Shown one piece after another: positions 2,836-16,813 of a stretch of 23,165 bases of DNA; positions within the stretch are counted from its first letter, which is position 1; the number at the start of each line of letters is the position of its first letter. The notes beneath the pieces were generated by a model that worked only from the letters and a program-made list of their open reading frames with translations, had not been told where the DNA came from and searched no databases. Both the position numbers and the translations under genes were made by a program. Where the stretch lies: positions 1 through 23,165 of the forward strand of contig CAAFWX010000049.1 of the NCBI GenBank assembly GCA_900766795.1. The letters run 5' to 3'. This stretch comes from Oscillospiraceae bacterium. GTDB lineage: Bacteria; Bacillota_A; Clostridia; Oscillospirales; Ruminococcaceae.

Positions 2836-3575
2836 ACGAGGAGAAATTCAGCGGCAAAGCCGACAATTACGACAAATACCGCCCGTCCTATCCGAGCGAG
2901 CTTACAGATTGGCTGTATTCGCTCACCCGCGCGCAGGCTGTCGCCGACATCGGCGCAGGCACGGGCAAGTTCACCGAAAAGCTGCTCGAAAAGCCGTGGC
3001 GGGTGACGGCGGTGGAGCCGAACGACGATATGCTCGAGAAGCTTCGCGGGAATTTTCCCGGTTTGAGGACGGTTCGCGCGTCTGCTGAGGACACGGGGCT
3101 GCCGTCGCAAAGCTTCGGGCTTGTCACCGCGGCGCAGGCGTTCCATTGGTTTGACGAGGTGAGGTTCCGCGAGGAATGCAGGCGGCTGCTGACAGACGGC
3201 GGCAGGCTTGCCATCGTGTTCAACAGCCGTTCTTCCGAAGGGATTTCCGCCGCCCGCGATAGGGTTTGCGAGGAGTATTGCCCCGCGTTTGCGAACCGAA
3301 ACGGTCACATGGGCAAGCGTTCAGCCGAAGAGGGCGACCGATTTCTTCGGGAGGAATACTTCACGAGCGTTGAGGTGTTCGCGCAGGAAAATCGGGCTGC
3401 TTTGACGCGGGAGCAGTTTCTCGGAGATACGCTTTCGCGCTCCTACGCGCCGCGTGAAAACGACGAGTGCTATGCGGCTTTTGTCGAGGAAATCGGCGCG
3501 GTGTTTGACGAATATCAACAAAACGGATTGGCGTCCGTGTGCTATACAACGACCTGCTATGCAGGCAGATTCTGA
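2832..3575 (+). CDS. Class I SAM-dependent methyltransferase
   Basis: This 247-residue Rossmann-fold methyltransferase shows motif I VADIGAGTGKFTEKLL (residues about 37-52) for S-adenosylmethionine binding. Acidic motif II follows as TAVEPND, then ASAEDTGLP, and a post-motif SFGLVTAAQAFHWFD, as in the Methyltransf_11/25 group. The N-terminus FSGKADNYDKYRPSYP is typical of this group, in which the substrate varies widely. The frame is open upstream to 2730, but the ATG at 2832 overlaps the preceding stop (ATGA) and puts the conserved N-terminus at the start. It ends 11 bases before the IMP cyclohydrolase gene. Its substrate cannot be read from sequence, and it is not a standard purine-pathway enzyme. 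Confidence 0.9.
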   Translation: MNEEKFSGKADNYDKYRPSYPSELTDWLYSLTRAQAVADIGAGTGKFTEKLLEKPWRVTAVEPNDDMLEKLRGNFPGLRTVRASAEDTGLPSQSFGLVTAAQAFHWFDEVRFREECRRLLTDGGRLAIVFNSRSSEGISAARDRVCEEYCPAFANRNGHMGKRSAEEGDRFLREEYFTSVEVFAQENRAALTREQFLGDTLSRSYAPRENDECYAAFVEEIGAVFDEYQQNGLASVCYTTTCYAGRF

Positions 3576-3586
3576 AAGGAGAAAGC

Positions 3587-4321
3587 ATGAACTCCATTAC
3601 ACTTGACAAGGAACTGAACTCCCTTGCCTATCACGGCAGAGGAATCATCATCGGCAAGAGCGCTGACGGCAAAAAGGCTGTCACCGCCTACTTCATCATG
3701 GGCAGAAGCGAGAACAGCCGCAACCGCATTTTCATCGAGGACGGCGAGGGAATCCGCACCGAGGCGTTCGACCCCGGCAAGATGGTTGACCCCCACCTCA
3801 TCATCTATGCGCCCGTGCGCGTTCTCGGCAACAAGACGATTGTGACCAACGGCGACCAGACCGACACAATTTTCCTGAACATGAACAAGGGCATGACCTT
3901 TGAGCAGTCGCTGCGCGAGCGCGAGTTTGAGGACGACGCTCCCAACTTCACCCCCAGAATCAGCGGAATAATCGAGCTTGACGGCGGCAAAATGAGCTAC
4001 GCGATGTCCATTCTGAAATCCGCAGAGGGCGACGGCTCCTCCTGCCGCAGATTCACCTACACCTACGAAAATCCGCAAAGCGGCATGGGCAGCTTCATTC
4101 ACACCTATGCGGGGGACGAGTGCGAGATGAACGGCGTGCGCAGGCTCCCGACCTTTGAGGGCGAGCCGAAGAACGTTGTTATCCCCGACATGGACATTGA
4201 CGCATTCACCGAGTTTATCTGGAAGAATCTGAACGCAGACAACGGCGTTTCGCTGTTCACAAGATACATCGACATTGCAACAGGCAAGTACGAGAGCAGA
4301 ATCGTCAACAAGAATAAGTAA
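3587..4321 (+). CDS. purO: IMP cyclohydrolase, PurO-type
   Basis: This 244-residue protein belongs to the stand-alone IMP_cyclohyd family (PF07826), which closes FAICAR to IMP in the last step of purine synthesis. Supporting segments are the N-terminus LNSLAYHGRGIIIGKSADGK, YFIMGRSENSRNRIF, the DPHLIIYAPVRVLGN region and the GMTFEQSLREREFEDD stretch. The start at 3587 follows AAAGGAG (3575-3581). The next gene, 11 bases downstream, encodes AICAR formyltransferase. Together the pair covers the two activities that most bacteria fuse in PurH. This split is known in archaea and in some Clostridia and Bifidobacteria. Confidence 0.93.
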   Translation: MNSITLDKELNSLAYHGRGIIIGKSADGKKAVTAYFIMGRSENSRNRIFIEDGEGIRTEAFDPGKMVDPHLIIYAPVRVLGNKTIVTNGDQTDTIFLNMNKGMTFEQSLREREFEDDAPNFTPRISGIIELDGGKMSYAMSILKSAEGDGSSCRRFTYTYENPQSGMGSFIHTYAGDECEMNGVRRLPTFEGEPKNVVIPDMDIDAFTEFIWKNLNADNGVSLFTRYIDIATGKYESRIVNKNK

Positions 4322-4332
4322 GGAGCAGGAAC

Positions 4333-5511
4333 ATGACAGAATTAGAACTGAAGTACGGCTGCAACCCCAACCAGAAGCCCTCGAGAATTTATATGGAGAG
4401 CGGCTCAGAGCTTCCCATTGAGGTGCTTAACGGCAAGCCCGGCTACATCAACTTCCTTGACGCTTTCAACGGCTGGCAGCTTGTAAAGGAGCTTAAGGCG
4501 GCGACAGGCTACCCTGCCGCAACCAGCTTCAAGCACGTTTCCCCCGCAGGCGCGGCAATCGGTCTGCCCCTTTCCGAAACGCTTGCTAAGATTTACTGGG
4601 TGGACGACCTCGGCGAGCTTTCTCCTCTCGCGTGCGCATACGCAAGAGCGCGCGGCGCAGACAGAATGAGCAGCTACGGCGACTTTATTGCGCTGTCCGA
4701 TGTGTGCGACGTTTCCACCGCGAAGATAATCCACCGCGAGGTTTCCGACGGAGTGATTGCTCCCGGCTACGAGCCTGAGGCGCTGGAGATTCTGAAATCC
4801 AAGCGCAAGGGCACCTACAACATCATCAAGATTGACCCCGATTACACTCCCGACCCCATCGAGCGCAAGCAGGTTTACGGCATAACCTTTGAGCAGGGAA
4901 GAAACGAGCTTGTGATTAACGACGAGCTTTTTGCAAACCGTCCCACCAAGAACAAGGACATTCCCCGGAGTGCCATTAACGACCTTGCAATAGCAATGAT
5001 TACGCTGAAGTACACCCAGTCCAACTCCGTAGCATATGCCTGCGGCGGACAGGCAATCGGAATCGGCGCGGGACAGCAGTCGAGAATCCACTGCACGCGT
5101 CTTGCAGGCACCAAGGCAGACAACTGGTGGCTGCGCCAGTGCCCCAAGGTAATGGAGCTTCAGTTCGTGGACAATATCCGCCGCGCCGACCGCGACAACA
5201 CGATTGACCTGTACATCGGCGAGGATTACATGGACGTGCTTGCAGAGGGCGAGTGGCAGAAGTTCTTCAAGGTTAAGCCCGAGGTGTTCACCCGCGAGGA
5301 AAAGCGCGCATGGCTTGACAAGATGACGGGAGTAGCGCTCGGCTCTGACGCATTCTTCCCGTTCGGCGACAATATCGAGCGCGCCCACAAGAGCGGCGTT
5401 GCATATATCGCACAGCCCGGCGGCTCTATCCGCGACGACAACGTTATCGAAACCTGTGACAAGTACGGAATCGCGATGGCGTTCACAGGCATTCGTCTGT
5501 TCCACCACTAA
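4333..5511 (+). CDS. purH: AICAR formyltransferase, stand-alone (PurH C-terminal type)
   Basis: The enzyme formylates AICAR to FAICAR using 10-formyl-THF. The 392-residue protein corresponds to the AICARFT domain alone. It lacks the about 200-residue N-terminal IMP cyclohydrolase domain of bifunctional PurH. It begins LKYGCNPNQKPS (the family's RYG.NPHQ), and SFKHVSPAGAA holds the Lys67-His68 pair equivalent to the catalytic KH of ATIC/PurH. Further conserved blocks are DGVIAPGYEPEAL, the TQSNSVAY/GGQAIGIGAGQQSR region and the C-terminal PGGSIRDD. An AAGGAGCAGG ribosome site precedes the ATG. It is the last gene of the purine operon, with a terminator 8 bases after the stop. Confidence 0.96.
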   Translation: MTELELKYGCNPNQKPSRIYMESGSELPIEVLNGKPGYINFLDAFNGWQLVKELKAATGYPAATSFKHVSPAGAAIGLPLSETLAKIYWVDDLGELSPLACAYARARGADRMSSYGDFIALSDVCDVSTAKIIHREVSDGVIAPGYEPEALEILKSKRKGTYNIIKIDPDYTPDPIERKQVYGITFEQGRNELVINDELFANRPTKNKDIPRSAINDLAIAMITLKYTQSNSVAYACGGQAIGIGAGQQSRIHCTRLAGTKADNWWLRQCPKVMELQFVDNIRRADRDNTIDLYIGEDYMDVLAEGEWQKFFKVKPEVFTREEKRAWLDKMTGVALGSDAFFPFGDNIERAHKSGVAYIAQPGGSIRDDNVIETCDKYGIAMAFTGIRLFHH

Positions 5512-12358: not shown

Positions 12359-12398
12359 TGTGTTACAGCATATTATTCTGTTCAGAGGTTAGTTTTTG

Positions 12399-13382
12399 AT
12401 GAAAAAGTTTACATATATTCTGGCGCTGTGCGCAGCCCTTGCCCTTGTTGCAGGCTGTGCGAGCAATGACGTCCGCAATATTCAGTACTATCAGATTGTA
12501 AGAAACAACGAGCAAAAGGCGGAGGATTTGGCAAAGCCCGAGCAGACGGAAGCCACCGCTGCGGTTGAAGAACCGCTGAGCGAGGAATCCGCTTTGCTGC
12601 CGACAGAATCCGCAGAGCCTGCAGCAAACGAGGCGGCTCCCGAATCCGCCGAGCAGACCGAATTTGCACAGGAGGAAGTTCCCGCCGAGCAGACGCAAGC
12701 CGCGCAGGAGGAAGCTCCCACCGAGCAGCAGTCTGACGCGCAGCCCGCTCCCGAGGAGCTTGACGACTATTACAGCGAGAAATACGCCGCATATAAGCTT
12801 TCAGACGAGGAGCGCGCGTTTACAAAGGACTCGATTTTTGTCGGCGACAGCATTTGCCGCGGCTTTTCCGAATACAAGGTTGTCAGCCGAAGCAATGTCT
12901 TTGCGCGAGGGTCGCTGGCTGCAAGAAACTTCTTCGATTTTGTGCAGTACTACGGCGACGACGAGGTGGATTTTCTGACGGTGCTCCGGAGAACGCAGCC
13001 GAAGTTCATCTTCTTCTCCATGGGCATGAACGACGTCAACATGACCGACGAGGAGCAGTACTGCGAGAATTACAAGGCGCTTATCGACATGGCTCTCGAG
13101 AACTCCGACGCGGAGGTTTTTGTGGCGGCAATCACCCCCGTATGCAGCGAGTTCACCTCCAACTACCGCATTGACTGCTTCAACCTGCGCATGGAGAAGT
13201 TCCTCTCGGAAACCTATCCGCAGCGCGTTCACTATTACGATTTCGCGAAGCACCTCAAGGATTCCGACGGAAACCTGCGCGAGTGCTTTGACGGCGGCGA
13301 CGGCGTACACCTTGCGCCCTATGCCTATTACGTTGCGCTCTGGGAGATGAACAGGGTTCTCACAGCGTGCGGGCTTACTTGA
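12399..13382 (+). CDS. SGNH/GDSL-hydrolase lipoprotein
   Basis: This 327-residue predicted lipoprotein has a signal sequence MKKFTYILALCAALALVAGC, with lipidation at Cys20. A long stalk rich in Glu, Ala and Gln (about residues 38-120) follows, then an SGNH hydrolase domain. Block I is FVGDSICRG (nucleophile Ser151), block III is SMGMNDVN (Asn211), and block V is DGVHLAP (Asp301, His304), giving a complete Ser-Asp-His set. Such surface esterases often remove acetyl groups from cell-wall or dietary polysaccharides. The domain also resembles those found in O-acetyl transfer systems. The ATG at 12399 is used with AGAGG (12384-12388). A TTG one codon upstream is possible. It is monocistronic, and no terminator directly follows. 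The repeat array begins 15 bases after the stop. Confidence 0.88.
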   Translation: MKKFTYILALCAALALVAGCASNDVRNIQYYQIVRNNEQKAEDLAKPEQTEATAAVEEPLSEESALLPTESAEPAANEAAPESAEQTEFAQEEVPAEQTQAAQEEAPTEQQSDAQPAPEELDDYYSEKYAAYKLSDEERAFTKDSIFVGDSICRGFSEYKVVSRSNVFARGSLAARNFFDFVQYYGDDEVDFLTVLRRTQPKFIFFSMGMNDVNMTDEEQYCENYKALIDMALENSDAEVFVAAITPVCSEFTSNYRIDCFNLRMEKFLSETYPQRVHYYDFAKHLKDSDGNLRECFDGGDGVHLAPYAYYVALWEMNRVLTACGLT

Positions 13383-13396
13383 AAAGGCAGCCCCAC

Positions 13397-13602
13397 GCTG
13401 ACCGATTTGTGGGTTGTGCAGGGTTTGCAGGGTTATACTATACCTTTGTATAAAATTTTGGAAAGAAAAAATATATAAAATGTATGTAGTAACCCTGCAA
13501 ACCCTGCACACCTACCACCAAACGCTTTTTTCACAGCGGCGGGCTTAGCGGGGCGCGGATTACGGCGCGGCGCAAGCAAACACATGTTCGGCAGGCTTGC
13601 AA
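13397..13602 (+). repeat. Palindromic tandem repeat, unit 1
   Basis: The unit begins GCTGACCG. Its left arm GTGCAGGGTTTGCAGGGTTA (13416-13435) is perfectly complementary to the right arm (13490-13509), leaving an A/T-rich loop of 54 bases. A GC-rich module follows: AACGCTTTT, CAGCGGCGGGCTT, GGCGCAAGCAAACACA and GTTCGGCAGGCTT. The module lacks about 14 bases present in unit 2 (CCGCGTATCACA region), and its loop is also shorter. There is no credible gene in this DNA. Confidence 0.9.
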
Positions 13603-13826
13603 GCTGACGGGTGGAGGGGTGTGACGGGTTGTGACGGGTTTACGGGTTTTTTAAACCTTTTTCATAAGAAAAAAGAAAATAAAATATATAAAGAAGTCTT
13701 GAAAAATGGCGAAAACCCGTCACAACCCGTCACCAAACGCTTTTCTCCGCGTATCACACAGCGGCGGGCTTGCTTTGTGTGGATTACTGCGCGGCGCAAG
13801 CAAACACACGTTCGGCAGGCTTTCGA
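13603..13826 (+). repeat. Palindromic tandem repeat, unit 2
   Basis: The unit begins GCTGACGG. The left arm (13621-13641) is GTGACGGGTT twice plus T and pairs perfectly over 21 bases with 13713-13733. The 71-base loop contains TAAACCTTT, an A-rich stretch with ATATATA, then GAAGTCTTG and AAAATGGC. The downstream module (AACGCTTTT, GTATCACACAGCGGCGGGCTT region, GCGCAAGCAAACACA, GTTCGGCAGGC) matches unit 1. Open frames on both strands here are by-products of the repeat. Confidence 0.9.
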
Positions 13827-14007
13827 GCTGACCGATGGTGGGTTATGGTGGGTTTTTGGGTTATCTAAACCTTTCTTATAAAAAAATGAAAATAAAAATA
13901 TATATAGAAGTCTTGGAAAATGGCAAAAACCCACCACAACCCACCACACCCTCCCCAGAACGCTTTTGCCTGCGTATCACACAGCGGCGGGGCTTAGCGG
14001 GGTGCGA
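13827..14007 (+). repeat. Palindromic tandem repeat, unit 3 (3' truncated)
   Basis: The unit begins GCTGACCG. The left arm (13836-13857) holds TGGTGGGTT twice and pairs with 13925-13946 at 21 of 22 positions. The 67-base loop repeats the unit 2 landmarks TAAACCTTT, ATATATA, GAAGTCTTGG and AAAATGGC. The flank keeps AACGCTTTT and GTATCACACAGCGGCGGG, then diverges after about 14007, so the unit is incomplete. From there to 14140 I see no gene or clear repeat. Confidence 0.88.
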
Positions 14008-14140
14008 GTTTGGATTAAACGGCACCGCCCGTTTTTCAGCGCGCCGCTTTTCCGACGGGACATTCCCGCCTGACAGCGGGTGTGGGTTTTCTGCGGTTTT
14101 TTGCCTTTTTCGTGTTTTGGTTTTGAACATTTTGGAGAAT

Positions 14141-14333: not shown

Positions 14334-16694
14334 ATGTATTACGACAGTTCCAGAAAAAGGCTTATCATTCTTTTGTCAATACTTGGTGCGCTCATTGTCG
14401 GCGTTATCGGATACAGCATTTTCTACGGTATCAACATGAGAAATGAGCAGCAGTACGCCAGAGAGCGCTCGGAGGCAGCGCAGTATATCGCGGACACCAA
14501 CAACTGGGTTGAGATTGAGAACAAGCTGAGCACCGGCTCGATGGAATATATCGAATCGCTCTATCTCAGCGCTAGCGACACCGCCGCTGACGCGGAGCGC
14601 ATATACAAGGACAGCGACGGCGACGGCTATCTTGACGAGTATGAGCACAGGGTCGAAACAGACCCCCTGAAGGCTGAAACTTTCACACAGGCAAACCCCG
14701 TCAAGTACGCCATAGAGTGCGAGGGCGCTTCGCTTTCCCTCACGGGAACTCCTGATATTGCCGCCGCGCACGTCACCGTCAACCAGTACAACAAGTCGCG
14801 CAACTCCGCTTTCGGAAGCAAGATTTACGAGCTTACCACTGCCGCAGACGAGGAATCCATCTTCTCGAGCGAGCTTACCATTGAGTTCAAGACCCCCGAG
14901 GGTCAGGACGCTTCCAAGGCTGTGATAAACGAGATTATGCCCAACGGCACGCTGTTTCCCATGCAGACAACGGTTGACGCGGCAAAGTGCACCGCTTCCT
15001 GCGAGCCTGAGATGTTCGCTTCGTATGTTGTCGTGTTTGACGAGCTGCTGGAGGACAAGATTAATTCCATTCCCGCGGTAGTGCTGTCGATTGACGACTC
15101 CGGCTCGATGTACTACTACAACGGCGACGAGGACTGCAACAACGACCCCGACCTGCTTCGCTATGATTTCTGCACAGACCTCATTTCCGCTGCGGGCAAG
15201 GAAGCCATCTTCGCCATGAACTATTTCGAGGGCACGGTGTATGATGGCTTTGGCTTTAACGAAAAGACAAAGAATATGAAGAACTTCATCAAGGCTCTCA
15301 AAAAGGTTCCCGAGTCTGAGAAGCAGTTCACGGGTACCTGCCTTGGAAGCGCGCTCGAAAAGAGCGTGAACGATGTTCTGAGTGTAAAGAACCCCAGCAG
15401 GTTCATCATCTGCCTTACCGACGGCGAATCCACCGAGGGCTATGACAAATGGGAGAGGGCGCTTCAAGAGTGCCGCGACGAGAACATTACCCTCATCATA
15501 ATCGGTCTTGGCGACCAGGTGGACAAGGAGCGGCTTTCTGCGGACGCGGTTTCCACGGGCGGCTATTACCTGAACGTCAAGGACGCCGATTGTATCGAAA
15601 CGATAAGCGAATCCATTCTTGCGGTTATCCAGAACAAGGGTATTCAGGTGCTGAAAATTAACGACAGCGCCGAGGAAAATACCATCATCAACACCTATCT
15701 GGTGTCTGACAGCGGCTTTGACAAGAACAAGCACGGCTTTGTCTACAACGACTATGACGTGGTTTCGCTGTATAACGGCTTCACCACCGAAACAGGCTGC
15801 CAGAGCGTGGGAATTGCCGAGCTTACAAGGCAGTGGTACATAGGCGATGTCAAAACCTCGATGGCTCCCGCTGTTACAAATCTTGCGGACAAATACAGCT
15901 CCGAGGTGGTTTCCGTGACGGATTCGAGCCAGTTTGTTATTCCCTTGACGGACTATAACCTGTCCAACATTCGCTCCGATGTCAACACAAACTTCACCGA
16001 TATCACCATTCCCTCCCTGAGGGCTGTCACCGACTACAACAGCATAATCAACGACTATGTAAACGCGGGCGTCAACATGCACGTTGAGGACGGCTGCCTT
16101 ATGGTAAACGACGACAAGGTGCCGCAGTACATCACCGACAACCCCGAGAGGTTCTTCAAGGCTGTCGTTGAGCTTGCCGACACGAAGTACTACACCGACA
16201 CCAAGCACAAGAAGCTTCAGTTCAACCGAATCTGCGTTTACTATCCGTATCTGAACTACTACATCGACCGCGAGGTCACAAACGACGACGATTACCTTAT
16301 CAGGGTCATCTACACGATATTCACCCAGCAGCTCACCCCGAATTTCGAGATGACATATTTCGTCACCCCCGACAGCGGAGTGCCCGAGAGCGTTGACAAC
16401 ACCGAGCTTCTCGACCACATCAACGAGCGGCTGCTTCACGGCGACCCCTGCGTTATCGCCTACGACACCACCGGCAGCAAGGACGCAGGCAGGGCAAACC
16501 ACGCGGTCAATGCCGTGGCGCTCTACCGCTCCTGCGAGGACGCGAGAATTTACTACCTCAAGTGCTATGACATTGACGTGCCCGACCAATACATCTACTT
16601 CAAGATAGACGCAACCGACATTCAAAACTATGTTATCACCGACCTCTGGCGCAATCAGCAGGTATATTTCTTCGGCACACAGACGCTCCACTAA
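14334..16694 (+). CDS. Membrane-anchored von Willebrand factor A surface protein
   Basis: This 786-residue protein has a short basic N-terminus and one membrane segment (about residues 10-33), with the remainder presumably outside. A calcium-loop motif follows (DSDGDGYLDEYE, 93-104), like EF-hand/thrombospondin-3 repeats. A vWA domain from about 245 to 435 has an intact metal site: DDSGS (254-258), Thr335 in FTGT, and Asp363 in LTDGES. The last about 200 residues end in a region like the second half of papain/C39 folds (NHAVNAVAL, His723; LKCYDID, Asp746), but I see no nucleophilic Cys in the expected place. The frame is open from 14202, but GGAGG (14324-14328) and the signal anchor support 14334. 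Likely role: adhesion or protein-protein scaffold at the cell surface. The specific partner is unknown. Confidence 0.85.
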   Translation: MYYDSSRKRLIILLSILGALIVGVIGYSIFYGINMRNEQQYARERSEAAQYIADTNNWVEIENKLSTGSMEYIESLYLSASDTAADAERIYKDSDGDGYLDEYEHRVETDPLKAETFTQANPVKYAIECEGASLSLTGTPDIAAAHVTVNQYNKSRNSAFGSKIYELTTAADEESIFSSELTIEFKTPEGQDASKAVINEIMPNGTLFPMQTTVDAAKCTASCEPEMFASYVVVFDELLEDKINSIPAVVLSIDDSGSMYYYNGDEDCNNDPDLLRYDFCTDLISAAGKEAIFAMNYFEGTVYDGFGFNEKTKNMKNFIKALKKVPESEKQFTGTCLGSALEKSVNDVLSVKNPSRFIICLTDGESTEGYDKWERALQECRDENITLIIIGLGDQVDKERLSADAVSTGGYYLNVKDADCIETISESILAVIQNKGIQVLKINDSAEENTIINTYLVSDSGFDKNKHGFVYNDYDVVSLYNGFTTETGCQSVGIAELTRQWYIGDVKTSMAPAVTNLADKYSSEVVSVTDSSQFVIPLTDYNLSNIRSDVNTNFTDITIPSLRAVTDYNSIINDYVNAGVNMHVEDGCLMVNDDKVPQYITDNPERFFKAVVELADTKYYTDTKHKKLQFNRICVYYPYLNYYIDREVTNDDDYLIRVIYTIFTQQLTPNFEMTYFVTPDSGVPESVDNTELLDHINERLLHGDPCVIAYDTTGSKDAGRANHAVNAVALYRSCEDARIYYLKCYDIDVPDQYIYFKIDATDIQNYVITDLWRNQQVYFFGTQTLH

Positions 16695-16738: not shown

Positions 16739-16813
16739 TGTAGGGGCGACCTGTGGTCGCCCGCAGGTGCTGAAAATGCTGCGCAAATCGGGCGACCACA
16801 GGTCGCCCCTACA
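16739..16813 (+). repeat. REP-like intergenic palindrome
   Basis: A perfect 24-bp inverted repeat (16739-16762 with 16790-16813) flanks a 27-base loop. Each arm is itself a hairpin, GGGCGACC and GGTCGCCC separated by three bases, so the DNA can form one long stem or two small ones. The ends read TGTAGGGG and CCCCTACA. It looks like a dispersed REP/BIME-type or MITE-like element inserted between the von Willebrand gene and its terminator. Only one copy is in the window. Confidence 0.85.

Follow-up and report, generated by a model that had tools for sequence, protein, structure and literature searches.

The window analysed here, a stretch of 23,165 nucleotides from an Oscillospiraceae bacterium (contig CAAFWX010000049.1, assembly GCA_900766795.1), carries between a GDSL-type hydrolase gene and a von Willebrand factor A (vWA) protein gene three tandem units (13397-13590, 13603-13815 and 13827-14007), which are very probably origin-type elements bound by a replication initiator. 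Each unit would reproduce the origin from which an NrS-1/D5-type phage or satellite replicates, with two sets of short repeats (iterons) that face opposite ways across a core that is AT-rich and melts easily. Origins of this architecture are already known in phages, satellites and plasmids; the orphan copies are new, and searches of an open-licence library, which leaves most subscription journals uncovered, listed no paper recognisable as describing orphan phage-origin arrays. Among the roles considered, that of a decoy or competitor origin is ranked first, tentatively and on sequence grounds, and for the favoured explanation as a whole, orphan phage-type origins acting as decoys or competitors, we judge the case to be about evenly balanced.

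Each unit begins with GCTGAC (at 13397, 13603 and 13827), in agreement with an earlier sequence-only reading of this DNA, which had also described inverted repeats with unit-specific, self-matching arms. These repeats are borne out, with their extents adjusted to 21, 21 and 23 nt; what had been missed is that every arm consists of two head-to-tail iterons of 8-10 bp, inverted around the AT-rich core. Unit 1 (forward strand, iteron TGCAGGGT) has its left arm at 13415-13435 (forward strand, 8-mers at 13417 and 13426), a core of 54 nt with 81% A+T at 13436-13489, and a right arm on the reverse strand at 13490-13510, with inverted iterons (13492 and 13501) and 21/21 pairing with the left arm. Unit 2 (forward strand, iteron TGACGGGT) presents a left arm at 13621-13641 (forward strand, iterons at 13622 and 13632), a core of 71 nt with 76% A+T at 13642-13712 which contains the AGAAGTCTTG motif, and a reverse-strand right arm at 13713-13733 (inverted iterons at 13715 and 13725), again 21/21 paired; a fifth iteron copy lies in its flank at 13605-13612 (forward strand), where units 1 and 3 have TGACCGAT. 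In unit 3 (forward strand, iteron TGGTGGGT), the left arm at 13836-13858 (forward strand, iterons at 13836 and 13846) and the reverse-strand right arm at 13924-13946 (inverted iterons at 13929 and 13939) enclose a core of 65 nt at 13859-13923 and pair at 96% over 23 nt. The R1 model, in whose training set all three units stand, matches them at 13415-13513 (79.6 bits), 13630-13727 (92.1 bits) and 13844-13941 (86.4 bits).

The iterons are identical inside each unit, and the three 8-mers are absent from the rest of the 23 kb window on both strands. Units 2 and 3 share inner cores that are 88% identical and have unlike iterons, the same two bases (AC versus GT) differing in all four arm iterons. 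The flanks common to the units, which the earlier reading had pointed out, are equally real: the G+C-rich flank between units at 13557-13602 has a second copy at 13781-13826, and the flank copies of units 2 and 3 reach 85% identity (13557-13630 versus 13781-13854) and 82% identity (13725-13768 versus 13948-13991). Chance is excluded as the source of the inverted repeats by a shuffle test, since 22 exact inverted seeds of 12 nt with loops of 40-110 nt lie in 13380-14040 and only 2 of 1000 dinucleotide shuffles contained any. Short mechanical open reading frames (ORFs) of 84-127 aa run across the units, and the two that were scanned matched no Pfam family. No primase-helicase was found in the 23 kb window, the scanned neighbours included no phage or island gene by Pfam (att sites were not searched), and a PADLOC scan of the neighbouring proteins returned no defence gene (0/8).

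The connection to replication initiators comes from viral relatives of the units. A gene for an NrS-1/D5-type primase-helicase lies within 600 bp of 82 of 125 iteron-rich viral copies, versus 11 of 290 iteron-poor matches, and in 31 of 58 viral relatives the element is found at most 200 bp from the 3' end of this gene. The Pfam HBD family was recognised in four of the eight phage primase-helicases scanned, and in structure the phage protein is matched best by the SaPI5 primase-helicase. From the literature and from the wing data given below, we infer that the C-terminal winged helix of the primase-helicase would bind the iterons, after which its helicase would open the core and its primase would start synthesis. 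Searches of phage and plasmid collections gave no DNA match to 13380-14040, and a viral scan for a core with AGAAGTCTTG matched nothing, so that no phage having the window's own core was found. As a separate observation, six viral loci (L098, L105, L110, L125, L155 and L178) have cores of lower A+T content with alternating GTGCGC/ACGCGC runs, perhaps another route to easier melting.

Initiators with near-identical C-termini can accompany different iterons. L118 (TGACGGGT) and L145 (TGCAGGGT, on a contig that holds the C-terminal part only) have cores 81% identical and differ in the wing, which reads KKTRDGWYY in the former and KKARDGLYY in the latter; a second such pair is formed by L237 (AHKKTGWYY) and L169 (VKKANGLFY). 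Directly after the glycine of the wing, 8/8 TGCAGGGT initiators and 0/15 TGACGGGT initiators have L, I or M, as counted on a 90% nonredundant set (32 of 82 aligned) from which glycine-less sequences, one of TGCAGGGT and five of TGACGGGT, had been set aside. This rule was noticed on a first set of sequences, and those added later agree with it (1/1 for TGCAGGGT and 8/8 for TGACGGGT), which for TGCAGGGT is a thin independent test. The C-terminal alignment was built without L100, L106, L110 and L119, where the element lies inside a long ORF, and the seed profile without 12 loci. Such iteron and wing pairs are a start toward predicting from sequence alone which initiator matches which origin.

Copies without a primase were also found in related genomes. 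The first DNA searches gave matches in 2 of 21 and in 8 of 200 genomes; L081, L082, L089, L090 and L095 (in G020, G017, G060 and G169) proved to be AT-rich chance matches, and six genomes with elements remained. These six, the true ones among the eight of the 200-genome search, hold eight loci, seven of which lack a primase, the eighth lying next to that of a prophage. A covariance model built on 23 elements, the three window units included, matched in at least 25 of 297 relatives, a lower bound obtained at E <=0.01 with strict filters and at most 13 candidates scored per genome. About 60 distinct places were matched, of which 42 were fetched, 8 were already covered and 10 weaker ones were set aside (3 of those being added later). 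A primase lay in the stretch for 4 of the fetched places, and 38 were orphans. Homologues with unpaired arms would have refuted the sequence-only reading, and this refutation did not come about: at least three copies of one iteron in both orientations were present in 31 of the 38 orphans, whereas 5 shuffles out of 760 gave as many and 17 out of 760 windows drawn at random from these loci did, a count that is partly by construction as the covariance model favours paired arms; the seven places failing this test are L589, L597, both of L603, L604, L609 and L610. The longest complementary run has a median of 11 between an element's own arms and of 6 with arms swapped between elements, 3.6% of the swaps reaching 11, and only 18 of the 38 orphans exceed 95% of their swaps because many of them share an iteron type.

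Those orphans whose surroundings were sampled lie between housekeeping genes. None of the 21 orphans examined is spanned by an ORF of at least 70 aa, and 16 of 20 flanking proteins from 11 orphan loci have a Pfam hit at 1e-8, to families that include phosphofructokinase, MurB, RapZ, homoserine dehydrogenase, carbamoyltransferase and beta-galactosidase; among these 20 proteins there was no phage structural or replication family, and one generic HTH_3 protein. At L590, L598 and L611, which lie at contig ends, only one side is visible. A D5_N search of six orphan-bearing genomes found three without a D5_N gene. In pattern searches, TGGTGGGT was found in 1 of 246 genomes, with a core that is not AT-rich (3 genomes for the backwards control), and TGACGGGT in 3 of 246 with likewise 3 for the control, the true ones being told apart solely by their AT-rich cores and repeated iterons. 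Inspection of G090:C80 revealed no element. Some further features of single loci can be recorded. L189 and L190 (G117:C13 and G117:C9) are dispersed orphan copies with 95% identity over 286 bp, and no D5_N gene was found in G117. At about 8540-8760 of L187 (G116:C1), GCTGACCG precedes TGGTGGAT iterons, as it does before the window units, with more TGGTGGAT copies alongside. By eye, L768 (G378) and L770, L772 and L774 (G307) show, after a spacer downstream, an apparent second and smaller inverted pair with the same iteron.

As decoys or competitors, the units would act when a matching phage makes its initiator: the chromosomal copy would bind the protein or fire instead of the phage origin, and the phage would be slowed; an array with different iterons would cover several phages. 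This role is ranked first because the iterons are intact, several specificities occur per genome, the arms are kept while the cores drift, and a phage origin placed in trans has an effect on phages. The conservation of the arms is seen at an orthologous site of G378 and G393, where they are 29/30 and 22/24 identical (51/54 bases), and where the core has 45 identities and 20 gap columns in 73 (shuffled cores giving a mean of 35.6 and a maximum of 42 in 200 shuffles). Identical positions make up 180 of 237 columns in the coding DNA upstream, and 126 of 154 over the initial 150 nt of the gene that follows. The iterons are kept better here than the core and than the coding stretches taken as a whole. 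A bolder version, possible but doubtful, is that chromosomal decoy-origin arrays constitute a protein-free heritable repertoire, each unit showing the iterons of another phage initiator on a common scaffold. New specificities would arise when a unit is duplicated and its iterons then switch in concert, so that the array would to some degree resemble a memory of initiators already encountered. If the units are decoys, they would amount to a layer of defence that needs no protein and that surveys based on defence genes would overlook.

Several observations weigh against the decoy reading or narrow its basis. A single chromosomal copy, or a few of them, may be too little to titrate a phage that is amplifying, and the orphan cores remain AT-rich, which a pure binding decoy does not need; moreover, the resistance precedent known as Per, in the available part of its description (PMC8965321), is a cloned origin in trans, whereas the window has chromosomal copies. 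On the viral side, 43 of the 125 iteron-rich copies have no recognised primase within 600 bp, for which contig ends or other initiators may be the cause, and the viral copies were found by patterns requiring matching arms, so that their pairing is not independent. The wing rule is no full code, and the TGTAGGGT phages fit it weakly, since of their 15 iteron-rich loci 6 have L, I or M at this position (one more being unaligned). A D5_N gene is present in three of the six orphan-bearing genomes searched (G057, G082 and G032), whose orphans could in some cases be relics. The conservation of the arms is seen in a single orthologous pair, of which one member, L609, fails the three-iteron count; the next gene is fully identical in G378 and G393 over its first 38 nt, as conserved as the arms, and gene conversion from copies dispersed in the genome could keep the arms alike. 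Finally, no orthologue of the window locus was found, the search with the vWA protein being empty apart from distant matches in 8 of 199 genomes (best 32%); there is consequently no empty or filled site with which to compare the window array.

The alternative that survives best, an unlikely one in our view, takes the orphans for relics, that is, origins left behind after the decay or excision of a prophage or satellite, multiplied by local duplication and without present function. Such an ancestry would suit the 88% identity between orphan and prophage cores in G057, the same value between the orphan core of G090 and the core of viral contig L169, and the coexistence in G082 of a prophage origin with three orphans. 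Yet no recognised phage gene adjoins the window units or the sampled orphans, the great majority of the orphans (the 31 of 38 counted above) retain matching inverted iterons, units 2 and 3 have kept full or almost full pairing of their arms while their flanks have diverged by 15-18%, and at the orthologous site of G378 and G393 the arms have outlasted the core.

Also unlikely, and placed after the relics, is the reading of the units as selfish elements reduced to an origin: non-autonomous sequences of about 100-200 bp, copied with the aid of a phage initiator and then reinserted, whose iterons switch to exploit new phages and which would be to phage replicons what miniature inverted-repeat transposable elements (MITEs) are to transposons. 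The sequence-only reading had proposed a mobile palindromic element among three options, and one site with empty alleles fits selfish elements well: of four genomes having both flanks, G307 and G331 are without the element and about 127-139 bp shorter, at a position between the stop codon of what we take to be a riboflavin-synthase-like gene and the next ribosome-binding site. The tandem direct repeats could come from an integrated concatemer, and copies with similar cores are dispersed within a genome in G307 and G378, as are the 95% identical copies of G117. In G307 and G378, the dispersed copies have iterons as unlike as TGTATGATA, GGACAGATA and TGACGGATA, and the five compared have cores identical in 46-53 of 59-66 columns, which AT-richness explains in part. 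Against selfish elements, no integration mechanism, target duplication, partner enzyme or transposase was identified, and the vertical conservation of the arms at one site is not what an insert that is purely selfish should show.

Similar cores that carry different iterons are indeed a recurrent finding. In G310, a tandem pair of units bears TGCAGGGT and TGAAGGGT iterons on cores that agree at 62 of 74 alignment columns; in G082, the tandem pair is of the TGACGGGT type in both units, the core of one being inverted relative to that of the other, and there is additionally a TGCAGGGT orphan with a related core (77-79%) besides the prophage origin; G275 carries a mixed element, and viral cores switch iterons as well (L118 and L145). 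A site common to G410 and G364 has TGACGGAT iterons in one genome and TGGTGGAT in the other, in a gapped alignment for which independent insertion stands as an alternative to an iteron switch. This variety bears on a third explanation, very unlikely, in which the iterons are host-regulatory sites, serving as operators for a host protein whose winged helix is similar. The intergenic placement would agree with it, one site lying after a stop codon and ahead of the following ribosome-binding site, but iterons vary within one genome (G385, G410, G355 and G307), the genes neighbouring the orphans are unrelated and the same iterons flank phage primase genes.

The remaining question is why the two arms change together. 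In the 23 aligned elements, standard pairs occupy 94.8% of the outer-arm cells, and the outer arm pair has 32 cells changed on both sides and 6 changed on one side (G-U type), mostly at two variable iteron bases. Over both arm pairs, the covariation score was 0.281 versus a shuffled mean of 0.124, a value reached by 0 of 500 shuffles but partly by construction, about half of the elements having come from patterns demanding matching arms. The score was at most 0.091 once the pairing was slid by 1-3 columns, and two of five covariation measures (pairs with two-sided change and further pair types) were no higher than in shuffles. The best 14-nt arms of the 14 elements found purely by sequence similarity gave 172 Watson-Crick, 4 G-T and 20 other cells out of 196, one row (L770) being noise as its arm window missed the true arms. 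RNA helices often evolve via G-U pairs. Since G-U cells are not enriched here, the constraint is most simply explained by a protein that recognises a single double-stranded site, present in inverted copies. Most likely, the arms change together since one initiator reads all iterons of a unit: if its specificity shifts, all iterons in both arms would have to shift jointly, and the arms of different units would differ and still pair because one protein reads every iteron. The changes had initially been taken as the mark of selected base pairing or of an active copying mechanism; pairing is indeed kept, but RNA base pairing is most likely not the target of selection, and of the three options then listed it is the protein-recognised DNA site that gains support. 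A family of structured RNAs or transcription terminators under selection for base pairing, despite its appeal given the long stems and co-varying arms, is scarcely credible, as G-U intermediates are few, the loops in the window measure 54-71 nt, the arms are built of direct repeats that an RNA stem does not need, the elements are linked to primase genes and, as had been anticipated, neither Rfam at gathering score nor a tRNA search matched anything in the window.

The array is bordered by genes for a GDSL-like lipase/acylhydrolase (12396-13382, forward strand) and for the vWA domain protein (14334-16694, forward strand). Between the latter and the next gene, a G+C-rich palindrome, TGTAGGGGCGACC...GGTCGCCCCTACA (16739-16813), reaches only about 15 bits in the model and probably belongs to another intergenic repeat family. 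Elsewhere in the window, adjacent genes at 3539-5511 encode an IMP-cyclohydrolase-like protein (PF07826) and a protein of 392 aa which we take to resemble a separate AICAR formyltransferase, a gene pair that suggests a split purH function.

Short intergenic palindromic repeats such as MITEs are, like the units, short, non-coding and dispersed, with inverted repeats. Their terminal repeats are fixed by the transposase, whereas the arms of the units differ from copy to copy. The sequence-only reading knew of no named element with this behaviour, a view that does not hold, as the architecture is that of stem-loop and iteron origins described in the accessible portions of PMC4234260 and PMC6092414. 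PLE satellites, in which the DNA-binding domain of RepA and the origin co-vary under conflict between mobile elements, with module swapping and the Odn nuclease (PMC8263062, consulted in part), differ from the units by an initiator of the RepA_N family and by origins that are not orphaned. The NrS-1 primase-polymerase belongs to the same family as the phage initiators found here, as judged from the Pfam HBD matches and the fold; its 8-nt recognition site occurs twice, once per strand, and the consulted part of PMC7102993 describes no iteron array, whereas the units have iterons. In Per (phage-encoded resistance), a phage origin cloned in trans interferes with the phage, according to the available sections of PMC8965321; the window units and the orphans likewise lie apart from any phage of their own, and they are natural and multi-specific where the clones in Lactococcus were artificial. 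The origins of SaPIs and PICIs, as far as the available text of PMC6092414 and PMC7581432 goes, resemble the units in their iteron-origin architecture, but they lie inside a mobile island with its own Rep, whereas the units are orphaned. Finally, the portion of PMC4234260 at hand describes the pRN1 origin as a stem-loop of about 100 bp, its stem measuring 21 nt and its loop 58 nt, located 3' of a gene for a primase/SF3-helicase/winged-helix protein, whose structure but not sequence is kept in pRN1 relatives and which has a similar element in phage BIP-1; its authors found no iterons in pRN1. The window units have the same dimensions (an inverted repeat of about 100 bp, whose stem is about 20 bp long and whose loop spans about 55-70 nt) and share with pRN1 a stem kept despite sequence change, but where the pRN1 origin stands beside its replication gene, the copies in the window have none and stand in tandem, built of iterons with three specificities.
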